From the NCBI GenBank assembly GCA_947627235.1, contig CANQVG010000005.1, positions 1 to 64,000 on the forward strand: a stretch of 64,000 nt of DNA. Reading direction: 5' to 3'. Shown here in pieces: positions 47,394 to 58,670 of this stretch. The notes under the pieces were generated by a model. That model made no database searches. It was given only the letters and a program-made list of their open reading frames with translations, and was not told the DNA's origin. Numbering within the stretch: the stretch's first letter is position 1; the number at the start of each line of letters is the position of its first letter. The position numbers were made by a program, and so were the translations under genes. The DNA comes from an uncultured Clostridia bacterium (lineage in GTDB: Bacteria > Bacillota > Clostridia > Oscillospirales > Ruminococcaceae).

Positions 47394-47478
47394 CGGCAAT
47401 TCCCCCTTTTGAATTAAACATGGCTGTACCTGCTTAATATGCGCGGAAATGGCCGAAAAAGGCTTATTTATGCACGTT

Positions 47479-47582
47479 AAGCGGGATGCGGGATACGAAC
47501 CGCAGCCGCTTTGACGGCATTTTGTTCGGGCAGCAACTCCCCGTCTGCCCGACACTATTTCACGCTCGTATCTCTACTCTTA
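47479..47582 (-). ncRNA. Tetrahydrofolate (THF) riboswitch candidate upstream of folT
   Basis: On the minus strand the leader opens AAGAGTAG, then a helix strand GATACGA (47566-47572 on the plus strand) that pairs with TCGTATC (47492-47498). The closing strand is GCATCCCGCTT, like the GCATCCGCTC end of THF-I riboswitches. Between them are GCGTGAAATAGTG, the hairpin CGGGCAG/CTGCCCG with GGGAGTTG in its loop, and a downstream CCGTC able to pair with GACGG, matching the pseudoknotted layout. A TATATT -10 box at 47593-47598 would start transcription at about its 5' end. It probably represses folT when folate is plentiful. Confidence 0.7.
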
Positions 47583-47609
47583 AATGTTTGTGAATATATT
47601 CAGGCGGCT

Positions 47610-52319: not shown

Positions 52320-53276
52320 TTATATTTTTCTGAACACTGCGGCGTTCCAGATGTCGCGGTGCTTTTGCTCAATAAGCTCAAAGCCTTGGCGCTTTATTTC
52401 CCCGACAACCTCGTCTACTCTGCCGTCGATTATTCCGGAGAGTATCAGCGTGCCGCCCTGTCTCGCCGTCTCTGCGAAAAGCTCTTTCATATTCAGAAGC
52501 ACGTCGGCGACGATATTAGCGGCGACTATGTCGTATTTCCGGCAGACCGTCTTGTGAAGCTCAGGGTCGGCGACGGCGTCTCCGCAGTAAACCTCTGCTC
52601 TTGAGTCGTCAATGCCGTTATTTCCGGCGTTTTTGCGGGAAATCTTGGCGGCGTCAGGCGAAATGTCCACCCCGACGGCTCTGCCAGCGCCCAGAAGCAG
52701 CGCCGATATGAAAATAATCCCGCTGCCGCACCCGAGGTCGATTATGCTGTCCCCATCGCGGACGTATTTCTCAATCATTTCAAGGCAGAGCTGCGTGGTG
52801 TGGTGCCGTCCTGTGCCAAAGCTGTTTTCCGGGTCAAGCTCTACTATTACGCGTCCTTTCGGGTCGGGTACCTCCTCCCACGACGGCTTTATAATAAGCC
52901 TTTCGCCTATCGGCTGCGGCTTGAAAAACTTCTTCCACTCGTTCGCCCAGTCCTCCTCGCGGATGCTCCCGCTCTCAGTTCTGTAGGCTATTCCGAGCGA
53001 TGTCAGACGGTCGAGAGCATACTGAATCGACTCTTTCATCTGAGCGCCGTTAGCGTCGCCCGAAAGATAAACGGTCACATAAGCGTCGCCTGATGTCGCC
53101 GACTTTAAAAGCTCGTCGTCTATGTAATCCCAGCTCGTATTTTTCTCAGCGGCAAACTCCCTCACGTCCTCGGGGTCGTTGATGACAAGCCCAGTTATCC
53201 CCGCAGAAATCAGCGCCGCGGTGAGATTCTCAATATTTTCGTGGTCGGTATGTATTCTGAGTTCAAGCCAATCCAT
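52320..53276 (-). CDS. prmA: Ribosomal protein L11 methyltransferase
   Basis: 318 residues. An N-terminal L11-recognition domain (about 1-90, starting MDWLELRIHTDHE) and a C-terminal SAM-dependent methyltransferase with ENSFGTGRHHTTQL, IDLGCGSGI and ANIVADVLLNM, all diagnostic of PrmA. The ATG at 53276 has GAGAGG upstream; the longer frame to 53369 would run into the terminator-repeat region. Downstream of repeat copy A, which now separates it from cadA. Confidence 0.92.
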   Translation of the reverse strand: MDWLELRIHTDHENIENLTAALISAGITGLVINDPEDVREFAAEKNTSWDYIDDELLKSATSGDAYVTVYLSGDANGAQMKESIQYALDRLTSLGIAYRTESGSIREEDWANEWKKFFKPQPIGERLIIKPSWEEVPDPKGRVIVELDPENSFGTGRHHTTQLCLEMIEKYVRDGDSIIDLGCGSGIIFISALLLGAGRAVGVDISPDAAKISRKNAGNNGIDDSRAEVYCGDAVADPELHKTVCRKYDIVAANIVADVLLNMKELFAETARQGGTLILSGIIDGRVDEVVGEIKRQGFELIEQKHRDIWNAAVFRKI

Positions 53277-53367
53277 AAACTGCCTCTCTTTCACATTTTT
53301 AAACAGTGTAGCACAAATGTCAGGCACAGTCAAGCGCAGGGGGCTGCCAAAACGTGTACATAAAAAC

Positions 53368-53391
53368 AAGTTCCCTCTTTTGAGGGAACCT
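53368..53391 (-). terminator. Distal duplicate of the cadA terminator hairpin
   Basis: Identical for 24 bases to 53608-53631. This copy keeps the T-rich tail (TTGTTTTTATG on the minus strand), as expected if an element was inserted into the original terminator. Confidence 0.65.
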
Positions 53392-53607
53392 TATCCTTTT
53401 GATAACCGCTGTTTACGCACTGATATTTCAAAAATTATAAAAATCGGGGCTTTGCCGCGATTTTTATACCTCAATCGCCGCAGCTCATAACCCGCGCGTT
53501 TGCGCGGGTTATGAGCGTGAGCGTATGCGCAGGCGATGCAGGAGGGGATTACGGGGAACCCTTTCGGGGGTCCCCGTCAGAGGCTGTCGAAAAAATTCGA
53601 CAGCCTC
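53392..53607 (-). repeat. Modular hairpin repeat element, copy A
   Basis: About 216 bases, non-coding. Read on the minus strand: hairpin GAGGCTGTCGAA.../...TTCGACAGCCTC (53580-53607), hairpin CGGGGACCC/GGGTTCCCCG, a constant tract ending GCCTGCGCATACGC, a variable middle with a 15-bp perfect stem (53483-53516), then a hairpin around ATAAAAATCGCGGC / GCCCCGATTTTTAT, and a 40-base tail opening TTTTTGAAA. Copy B at 57702-57965 shares these parts in the opposite orientation, except for the middle. The stretch 53277-53635 holds no gene. Confidence 0.75.
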
Positions 53608-53631
53608 AAGTTCCCTCTTTTGAGGGAACCT
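53608..53631 (-). terminator. Proximal terminator hairpin of cadA
   Basis: GGTTCCCTC pairs with GAGGGAACT (minus strand). It lies directly after the cadA stop, but its T-tail has been displaced by repeat copy A. Confidence 0.65.
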
Positions 53632-53635
53632 GTTA

Positions 53636-55513
53636 TTACTTTTTTACATTGTAATTCAGCGCACGAAGCGAATTGAGTATCGCGAGTACTGTAACTCCGA
53701 CGTCGGCAAAAACAGCCGCCCACATACCCGCGTATCCGCAAAGCTCCAGTCCTATTATCACAAGCTTGGTTAAGAACGCGAAAGCCACGCACTGATAAAC
53801 TATTTTCATCGTCCTGCGCGAAATTTTTACGGCAAGCGGAAGCCGCGAAAGCCTGTCGTCAAGTATGACCACGTCGGCGGTCTCTATCGCCGCGTCTGAG
53901 CCGAGTCCGCCCATCGCCGCGCCGATATCGGCAAGCGCGAGTACGGGAGCATCGTTGATGCCGTCGCCTACAAAGGCGGTTTTTCCGCGGCTCTGTGACA
54001 TTATCCTCTCAAGCTCGGCACATTTCTCTTCCGGAGTTAGATTTGCCCTCACGTCGCTTATTCCCGCCTGCTCGGCAATCTTCTCTGCCGCCGTCCTGCT
54101 GTCACCCGAAAGAATCGTGACACTGTTGATTCCGAGCTTTTCAAGTGCTTTTACAGCGTCGCGGCTATCGGGTTTAAGCTCGTCTGCAAGAGTTATACTC
54201 CCGATTTTTTCGCCGTTTTTCATAACCGATACGCTGCCGTCCTCGCCCTTTTCAACCGAAATTTCATCTTCGCCGACTTTAGCGGTTATACCCCTCCCCG
54301 CCTTTTCACTGCTCTCTAAAATCAGCGAATCGTCAATCTTTTCGCCGTATGCCTTAACTATCGCCTTAGCTATCGGGTGTGTTGAGCGGCTCTCGGCATA
54401 AGCCGCAAATCTCAGAACGTCTTCGCCGCCCTCTACGGATACAACGCTCAGGTCGCCCTTGGTGAGGGTACCGGTTTTGTCGAGTGCGACCGACTTCAGC
54501 TTTGAAAGTGTTTCAATCGAAGACGTGCCCTTTATGAGTATGCCGTTGCGGGAGGCGCAGCCTATACCGGCAAAGAAGCTCAGCGGCACCGAAATTACAA
54601 ACGCGCATGGGCATGACACCACCAGCAGCGTGAGTCCGCGGTAAAACCACGAGGTGAATGTCTCGGCGTAGCCTGTGAAAATAGGACAGATAAACGCAAT
54701 AACGAGCGCAAGGGCAACCACCGCGACCGTGTATTTTTTGGCAAAACGGGTTATGAAGCGCTCGGTTTTTGCCTTTTTTTCCTGCGCGTTTTCAACAAGT
54801 TCGAGTATTCTTGCCGCGCCCGACTCGCCATAGGGCTTTGTGACTTTTATCTCAATCGTACCCGAGGTGTTGATACCGCCGCCGTAAACCGTATCGCCGA
54901 CGCCGCATAACACCGGCAGCGATTCACCGGTCAGCGCGGAGTTGTCGATGGCGGTCTCGCCGCTCAGTATAACACCGTCCGCAGCGATTCGCTCTCCCGC
55001 GACAGCTACCGCTATGTCGCCCGGGACAACCTCCTCGACCGGCACGGTGACAAGCTCGCCGCCACGCCTAAGCGTTACGCTGTCTGGTCTTAGCGCCAGA
55101 AGCGCGGTCACAGAGCGGCGCGAACGCTCGCAGGCTACGTCCTCCAAAAGCTCGCCTATCGAGTAAAACAGCATTACCGCCGCCGCTTCGGTGTATTCGC
55201 CTATCGCGAAAGCGCCTACGGTCGCTATGGTCATAAGAAATTCCTCGTCTATTGAAAACTCAGTGAACAGCTCCTTAAGCGCGCCTAAAATAACCTCCGC
55301 GCCTACGATAAGGTAAGCGGCTATAAGCATAGCAAGCTTAACTGCGGGAACCGGCACAAAGAACGACGCCACGAAAAGCACTCCGGCGGCTATTATCTTA
55401 ATAAGCTGAACCTTTACCGAGCCCTCTTCGTGCTCACCGTCAGACTTTTCCTCGCGGACGACGCCGCTCTCGGAGCATACGTTTTCAAGCTCGCATACAT
55501 TTTCATTTGACAT
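53636..55513 (-). CDS. cadA: Heavy-metal P1B-type ATPase (zinc/cadmium/lead efflux)
   Basis: 625 residues with the standard order: N-terminal helices, actuator domain TGES (in NSALTGESLPV), CPC metal motif in VVSCPCAFVISVPL, phosphorylation DKTGTLTKG, nucleotide-binding STHPIAKAI and the hinge GDGINDAPVLALA. There is no HMA domain; the 35-residue head is acidic with a few Cys (NVCELENVCSE). The CPC motif together with the adjacent CadC/SmtB-type repressor points to Zn/Cd/Pb export. It follows arsR by 18 bases. Confidence 0.93.
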   Translation of the reverse strand: MSNENVCELENVCSESGVVREEKSDGEHEEGSVKVQLIKIIAAGVLFVASFFVPVPAVKLAMLIAAYLIVGAEVILGALKELFTEFSIDEEFLMTIATVGAFAIGEYTEAAAVMLFYSIGELLEDVACERSRRSVTALLALRPDSVTLRRGGELVTVPVEEVVPGDIAVAVAGERIAADGVILSGETAIDNSALTGESLPVLCGVGDTVYGGGINTSGTIEIKVTKPYGESGAARILELVENAQEKKAKTERFITRFAKKYTVAVVALALVIAFICPIFTGYAETFTSWFYRGLTLLVVSCPCAFVISVPLSFFAGIGCASRNGILIKGTSSIETLSKLKSVALDKTGTLTKGDLSVVSVEGGEDVLRFAAYAESRSTHPIAKAIVKAYGEKIDDSLILESSEKAGRGITAKVGEDEISVEKGEDGSVSVMKNGEKIGSITLADELKPDSRDAVKALEKLGINSVTILSGDSRTAAEKIAEQAGISDVRANLTPEEKCAELERIMSQSRGKTAFVGDGINDAPVLALADIGAAMGGLGSDAAIETADVVILDDRLSRLPLAVKISRRTMKIVYQCVAFAFLTKLVIIGLELCGYAGMWAAVFADVGVTVLAILNSLRALNYNVKK

Positions 55514-57651: not shown

Positions 57652-57678
57652 AAAGAACGGTGTCGTTTCCTACAAAAA

Positions 57679-57701
57679 GCGCCTCTCTGATGAGAGGCGC
57701 T
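57679..57701 (+). terminator. Proximal terminator hairpin of the MerR gene
   Basis: AGCGCCTCT pairs with AGAGGCGCT around CTGATG, preceded by an A-tract; it lacks a T-tail because repeat copy B follows immediately. Confidence 0.65.
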
Positions 57702-57965
57702 GAGGCTGTCGAAAATTCGACAGCCTCTGACGGGGAACCCCGAAAGGGTTCCCCGTAATCCCCTCCTGCATCGCCTGCGCATACGCCACGTACGAACGCG
57801 GGGTTTTGTCCGCAGGACAACTGAGACGCTTTGCGCCGAAGGCAGTACTGCGGCTACAAAACCAGCTTTCGTTTGCGGCAGATTAAGGTATAAAAATCGC
57901 GGCAAAGCCCCGATTTTTATGGTTTTTGAAAAAATATACGTGAACAGAGTTCATCGACAAACTGA
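57702..57965 (+). repeat. Modular hairpin repeat element, copy B
   Basis: About 264 bases, inverted relative to copy A. Hairpin GAGGCTGTCGAA/TTCGACAGCCTC (57702-57727), hairpin CGGGGAACCC/GGGTTCCCCG, then the constant tract to GCGCATACGC (59 bases with one difference from copy A). A variable middle of about 100 bases is unrelated to that of copy A. The AAAAATCGCGGC...GATTTTTAT hairpin and a tail starting TTTTTGAAA follow. The stretch 57652-58001 has no gene. Confidence 0.75.
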
Positions 57966-57988
57966 GCGTCTCTCTGATGAGAGGCGCT
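57966..57988. terminator. Distal duplicate of the terminator hairpin, shared with the ECF S component gene
   Basis: Matches 57679-57701 at 22 of 23 positions and carries the T-tail (CGCTTTTGC). It can stop MerR readthrough and, on the other strand, the convergent gene ending at 58002. Confidence 0.65.
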
Positions 57989-58001: not shown

Positions 58002-58670
58002 TCATTCCTTATTTGCTATATAAACCCACACTGCGAGGGCGGATACCGCCAGAAACACGGCGGCTATCGCGAGGTTTACATACCACTTTCTCTCGCGGGA
58101 ATCCCGCTCGGAAATGATGTCGCGGAAATATGTCGACTTGAGCGGCTTTAAAAGCGCGAAATAGAGCGGTATAGACACCGCCACGGCTATCACGGCGTTT
58201 ACACTCGATGTCAGCAGGTTGGTAGCGGATGCAGTCAGAGCGGTCTGTACCGCGGAACCGTAGGCGAGACGCTGTATCGCATACGTTCTTAAGACGTAGA
58301 GCACGATATAAACAAGCTGTCCGACCACGGCGCTGACGGCGATGTGCGCGGTTTCTCCGCCTATTCTTTTCTCGCGCTTGGCAAGATATCCGCAGATGAA
58401 GCCCATCGCGAATTTTGAAAGAAACGTAAACGGCGCCGAGATTATATAAACCGGGTCCAGAAGGTCATACAGCCCCGCACCTATTCCCGAAGCAAGCCCG
58501 CCCGCAAGCGGTCCGAAAAGAAGCCCGGCCAAAAGACACATAGAATTTCCGAAGTGAATCCGAGTTATCAAGACGCCGTTAGGAATCTTTATCTGAAGAT
58601 AGTTTCCCACAAAGCAGAGCGCCGCCATAAGACCGACGGCGACAATAGTCGCAAGTTTTTTGTTTTTCAT
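58002..58670 (-). CDS. ECF transporter S component, vitamin unknown
   Basis: 222 residues, six membrane helices plus one C-terminal helix. The block IHFGNSMCLLAGLLFGPLAGGLASGIGAGLYD and FLSKFAMGFICGYLAKRE is typical of ECF-type substrate-binding subunits, which share a common energy module encoded elsewhere. GAGGTGAT precedes the ATG. No riboswitch was seen in the leader. The substrate cannot be deduced. Confidence 0.8.
   Translation of the reverse strand: MKNKKLATIVAVGLMAALCFVGNYLQIKIPNGVLITRIHFGNSMCLLAGLLFGPLAGGLASGIGAGLYDLLDPVYIISAPFTFLSKFAMGFICGYLAKREKRIGGETAHIAVSAVVGQLVYIVLYVLRTYAIQRLAYGSAVQTALTASATNLLTSSVNAVIAVAVSIPLYFALLKPLKSTYFRDIISERDSRERKWYVNLAIAAVFLAVSALAVWVYIANKE

Follow-up and report, generated by a model that had tools for sequence, protein, structure and literature searches.

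A gene-less element, probably related to IS1182-family insertion sequences, that nests in transcription terminators and duplicates their hairpins

The systems closest to the element reported here, which is gene-less and lies between two copies of a terminator hairpin, are found among the insertion sequences (ISs) of the IS1182 family and the small intergenic elements known as MITEs. IS1272 and TnSha1 of staphylococci both belong to the IS1182 family and use inverted repeats as targets, several of which are confirmed terminators (PMC4923244, PMC5678879). Unlike the element, however, they are described in the accessible portions of these reports as partly deleting or replacing the target hairpin, with no target duplication: Furi et al. 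(PMC4923244) identified the targets as terminator hairpins that were partly deleted, and Wan et al. (PMC5678879) described a replacement of the target hairpin by IS1272 without duplication. In the accessible text of the latter, a duplication of the whole hairpin was drawn as pathway b, a hypothetical alternative only (PMC5678879). MITEPye1 of Paracoccus yeei resembles the element in being gene-less and intergenic, with IS1182-like ends and stem-loop folding, but its direct repeats are of 4 bp, and whole-hairpin duplication is not mentioned in the available part of its description (PMC11578231). The BrickBuilt MITE of Porphyromonas gingivalis is also intergenic, and 10 of its 19 copies were predicted near terminators or polyadenylation sites, but its duplications are of 2-4 bases and, as far as the available text extends, the terminators were not described as duplicated (PMC4596501). 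Within the accessible portions of the literature, no account of whole-hairpin duplication by IS1182 members as an observed event was found.

The window, i.e., the whole stretch of 64,000 nucleotides analyzed here, encodes a cadmium-family P-type ATPase on the minus strand (53636-55513; TIGR01512, 522 bits), which agrees with the name cadA given to the gene in an earlier sequence-only reading. Behind cadA, in the intergenic region between cadA and prmA (TIGR00406), a terminator hairpin of 24 bp was found twice in identical form on the minus strand, at 53608-53631 next to cadA and at 53368-53391 on the far side; the identity count is 25 if one chance flanking base is included. The spacing of 216 nt between the two hairpins is made up of element copy A (53393-53607, minus, 215 nt), which was delimited by alignment with seven other copies, and a single extra base at 53392. 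No recognizable gene was identified in the element, where the list of open reading frames included one TTG frame of 103 amino acids, located on the other strand and overlapping the edge (53179-53490). The region 53360-53645 had an RNA fold z-score of -15 relative to shuffles. Sequence identity, reading frames, and folding thus bore out the earlier description of a gene-less, hairpin-rich element of 216 nt between identical cadA hairpins.

The T-tail was likewise found where that reading had placed it. Read from cadA, the near hairpin leads straight into the element with no T-tract, while the far hairpin is followed by GTTTTT (T-tract at 53362-53366) and was the only copy-A hairpin identified on that strand by a terminator scan. 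As the T-tract was gone from the near hairpin and kept on the far one, termination is predicted to have been shifted by one element length instead of being lost, and cadA would retain a working terminator.

Copy A consists of a series of hairpins, all given here on the minus strand. The left end (53580-53607) forms hairpin 1 and starts with the terminal repeat GAGGCTGTCGAA, which matches the G-type left-end consensus of IS1182 elements in 10 of 12 bases. It is followed by hairpin 2, a variable module in which two pairs are altered on both sides (53551-53577), by hairpin 3 (53483-53516), which is enclosed by an outer stem (53532-53537 with 53474-53479) that is invariant, and by hairpin 4, with an A-rich left arm and a T-rich right arm (53436-53468). 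The right end (53393-53428) is worn in copy A, which only ties the best shuffle in a comparison with IS1182 right ends. A described RNA family was rejected as the identity of the element: the Rfam search of the window returned only a THF riboswitch, located elsewhere (47477-47583, minus, 72.5 bits).

The window also includes copy B (57702-57964, plus, 263 nt), in which the inner module is longer. Its upstream hairpin (57678-57701, plus) is identical at 23 of 24 positions to its downstream hairpin (57965-57988, plus), which is followed by TTTG, and the hairpin differs in sequence from that of copy A. A candidate folate-family ECF transporter component, with a match below its cut-off, adjoins copy B at 58002-58670.

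In the source genome, a draft assembly of 1.65 Mb in 37 contigs (97.6% complete), eight copies of the element were identified by the end pattern, while a 14-mer taken from the sequence-only reading recovered seven places. In seven of the eight copies, one hairpin, in exact or worn form, stands on both sides of the element, with a sequence of its own at each site and an aligned length of 21-29: the pairs are identical in L002 and L006, carry one difference in L003 and L004, and are more worn in L005, L007, and L014. Among all 40320 permutations of the upstream-downstream pairing of the eight copies, the observed score was reached by the true pairing alone. The fold score, the eight copies, and this result indicate that the arrangement did not come about by chance. 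The central proposal of the earlier reading, an insertion into the terminator that duplicated the entire hairpin, is upheld by these seven pairs. The eighth copy, L001, has two unlike hairpins on its sides and is of the kind that the reading itself had set against its proposal, as are 10 of the 61 IS loci described below. IS1272-type transposition, which replaces the hairpin, was rejected for the element, as the hairpin is present twice at those seven sites.

The length of the element ranged from 204 to 297 nt among the eight copies, with longer inner modules in L001 and L003. The remaining six fall in the ordinary size range of 204-216 nt; their alignment had a mean column identity of 91%, and their common fold comprised 59 pairs in five helices, where 96.9% of the cells pair. 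Changes on both sides of a pair occurred four times, compared to a mean of 1.1 in shuffles, and a count of four was reached in 3 of 500 shuffles. This may be taken as modest covariation evidence for the fold, coming from six related sequences in which a correction of one hairpin arm by the other could yield the same pattern. In addition, the loops of hairpins inside the element were inverted between some copies.

A transposase between ends resembling those of the element, a search target suggested in the sequence-only reading, was found in the IS1182 elements of relatives and not in the source draft genome, where neither the family model nor a profile of five transposases identified an IS1182 transposase. 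Matches to the family model (NF033551) occurred in 4 of the 31 genus genomes (three over the cut-off) and in 55 of the 197 family genomes (six over the cut-off). Among 17 IS1182 loci checked for exact repeats with a minimum length of 13 bases, four had one (L046, L056, L057, and L058), measuring 39, 29, 31, and 39 bp, respectively; all are palindromes that directly adjoin the IS ends. An exact repeat was absent from five of the nine over-cut-off loci of the genus and family (L045, L047, L059, L060, and L061), some of which are cut or broken, and in L047 the left IS end adjoins a hairpin by eye. L046, from the same genus as the source genome, lies between identical terminator hairpins of 39 bp with a T-tract on the far copy only. 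The IS1182-family ISs of Clostridia (e.g., L046 and L100; Candidatus Faeciplasma pullistercoris) resemble the element in their terminal repeats, in their location in terminator hairpins, in the duplication of the whole hairpin, and in the T-tract at the far copy alone, but they carry a transposase whereas the element is gene-less.

For a broader survey, contigs were scanned with the profile of five transposases, and the best 80 of 517 relatives were kept. A search blind to palindromes found direct repeats beside matching ends in 46 of these best 80 IS1182 loci; 45 of the repeats are hairpins of 16-60 bp, and the remaining one is a spurious repeat of 5 bp. With an IS end motif drawn from the loci of this direct-repeat search, hairpins were found to adjoin 130 of 141 IS ends (63 of 68 on the left and 67 of 73 on the right), compared to 22 of 1084 positions picked at random from these loci. 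Both ends were present in 61 loci, where the two hairpins were direct copies in 40, symmetric in two, loop-inverted in two, different in 10, and uncalled on one or both sides in seven. The hairpin caller was strict, as L103, L108, and L168 were scored hairpin-less, yet had duplications in the direct-repeat search.

The duplications at the 40 direct loci, again from the best 80 of 517 relatives, comprise whole hairpins of 20-41 bp, and 39 of them are distinct. At least 90% of the outer positions pair in 33 of the 39, and a flank that is A-rich on the left or T-rich on the right accompanied 30 of them under a loose rule applied without a control. The sets of 17 and 80 loci overlap, since the duplications of L100, L150, L157, and L163 are those of L046, L056, L058, and L057, respectively. 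In L101 and L113, the flanking hairpins are alike except for an inverted loop. In AP018533, the one genome checked in this respect, one and the same hairpin lies to the right of L124 and to the left of L159, which suggests a chromosome rearrangement between IS copies, and unlike hairpins at IS loci may stem from such recombination.

The behavior was also seen on mobile replicons. The 54 IS1182 matches listed comprised 40 out of 344 plasmid records and all 14 phage records; seven of these loci were read, and five had direct hairpin copies at both IS ends by eye: those of a Bacillus subtilis plasmid (L205), Sphingobium (L206), Vibrio penaeicida (L207), and two streptococcal phages (L209 and L210). 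No credible end pair was found in the other two plasmid or phage loci, L204 and L208. ISfinder gives 0-60 bp for the direct repeats of IS1182, so curators may know of long duplications in this family. The earlier reading had called the duplication behind cadA far longer than typical insertion-sequence target duplications; such long duplications are habitual in the IS1182 family and thus not foreign to insertion sequences.

The ends of the element provided a further connection to these ISs. The right end of L001, the best-preserved copy, matches the IS1182 right end of Pseudoflavonifractor phocaeensis (L135) at 24 of 28 bases, with a score of 20 compared to at most 13 in 200 shuffles. Among the eight copies, four right ends and three left ends scored above all 200 shuffles. 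The first base is G or A in the element and C in the IS ends. With many ends worn and the first base differing, the link between the element and the ISs is one of ends plus shared target behavior, with no one decisive match. As in a MITE, the element is short, lacks a transposase gene, is present in several copies per genome, has IS1182-like terminal inverted repeats, though many ends are worn, and shares the target duplication of the IS (seven of eight element copies; 40 of the 61 IS loci for which both ends were found). An IS1182 transposase in the same genome, a further mark of a MITE, was not found in the 37 contigs of the draft, but it is inessential, since the helper can be lost. The element is therefore very probably a non-autonomous relative of the IS1182 family, i.e., a MITE, which was moved in trans and which nests in terminators and duplicates them. 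Mobilization in trans is an inferred but well supported part of this reading, because the element ends resemble IS1182 ends and those ISs duplicate whole hairpins. As no IS1182 transposase was identified in the draft genome, the copies it carries may now be stranded.

The exact 5'-end pattern of the element was found only in the source genome among the 31 genomes of the genus and had no match in viral contigs, and no copies of the element were found in phages or plasmids. In a looser DNA search, 9 of 119 relatives matched, including the source genome, mostly by a core with no left end. A core without the left-end hairpin was observed, for example, in L016, L025, and L018 (genomes G015 and G020), and it may be either an older module or a truncated copy. 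Tandem arrays with a period of 122 nt, composed of the first hairpins of the element and a short form of the core, were present in G015 of the same genus (L033, L037, and L040). In another locus of this genome (L030), hairpin 4 is broken by another long palindromic insert. A related core in L020 (G026) lies by eye between direct repeats of approximately 95 bp, each spanning a hairpin as well as the end of the following gene.

Empty sites in relatives, also proposed as a check by the sequence-only reading, were observed for one copy of the element. At the L004 site, for which seven of eight matching relatives were read, G010 and G016 do not have the element and keep both neighboring genes by eye; the empty site has one bidirectional terminator in G016 and two unlike hairpins in G010. 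The element was absent from the approximately 330 nt behind cadA in the 12 relatives read, where the other neighbor of cadA appears different, and hence no strict empty sites were available for copy A. For copy B, the eight relatives read included no clear empty site.

In DDE transposases, the length of the duplication is usually a fixed property of the enzyme, while here it follows the target palindrome, with 20-41 bp in the direct loci. In the mechanism that we propose, the helper would be an IS1182-type DDE transposase with palindromic hairpins, mostly terminators, as targets. The target would be the extruded cruciform, whose stem-loops would hold their feet close to each other at the junction. 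There, the element ends would be joined to the 5' feet of the cruciform by ordinary strand transfer, and repair would copy the hairpin to give a direct whole-hairpin copy on each side. Strand transfer at the feet would make the duplication vary in length with the hairpin. We consider the cruciform step the simplest account, with a confidence slightly above even. The pairs with an inverted loop would agree with a folded intermediate, but they decide nothing, because loops invert between element copies too. What pathway b predicts, as drawn in the accessible text of Wan et al. (PMC5678879), is seen in the present loci, which resemble natural instances of it.

An alternative that we hold as tentative, at below-even confidence, retains the same transposase family without a cruciform, such that the inverted repeat is either read as duplex and cut at both borders or used as a single-stranded hairpin at the replication fork. 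The duplication borders track the palindrome, as both routes would also give, and 25 of the 39 duplications have A as their first base and T as their last, a possible sequence cue. However, the hairpins have no common sequence and span 20-41 bp, which would be hard for a fixed duplex-reading enzyme to accommodate; the data do not separate a cruciform from a single-stranded hairpin. It is very unlikely, on the other hand, that the paired hairpins arose not by insertion but by later exchange, through recombination or template switching beside repeat copies. Hairpins do get rearranged, as indicated by the inverted loops of L101 and L113 and of hairpins inside the element, and the hairpin shared by L124 and L159 indicates that recombination between copies occurs. 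Nevertheless, the direct copies in 40 of 61 IS loci are flush with the IS ends, the L004 site is without the element in two relatives, and later exchange would leave the hairpins at 130 of 141 IS ends unexplained. Finally, although group IIC introns insert behind terminator hairpins, and terminator targeting and a hairpin-rich, gene-less body would suit a remnant of such an intron or another retroelement, this origin is highly improbable, as no group II match was found in the window at Rfam gathering scores (the THF riboswitch being the only family identified), the element has no gene, its ends resemble IS1182 ends, and, to our knowledge, hairpin duplication is not expected of introns.

Insertion at a cruciform remains the reading we favor for the element and its IS relatives. 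In the accessible text on the IS1272 model (PMC5678879), whole-hairpin duplication was drawn only as an alternative, while the present loci look like cases of it in nature. As these apparent cases come from Clostridia and, judged by eye, also from Bacilli and Proteobacteria, the cruciform-target model is directly testable. What is added to the earlier reading is a name for the element, an IS1182-related MITE. For the family, we lean, by a small measure, towards a model in which the four-way junction of an extruded cruciform is the insertion point for IS1182-type transposases and the shape of the target, not the enzyme, sets the size of the duplication. The family would then include hairpin-duplicating and hairpin-removing members, depending on which foot is attacked, and gene-less passengers would use the first mode, nest in terminators, and hand a working terminator back. 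This suggests a safe-landing strategy, in which the element settles outside genes and returns the terminator.
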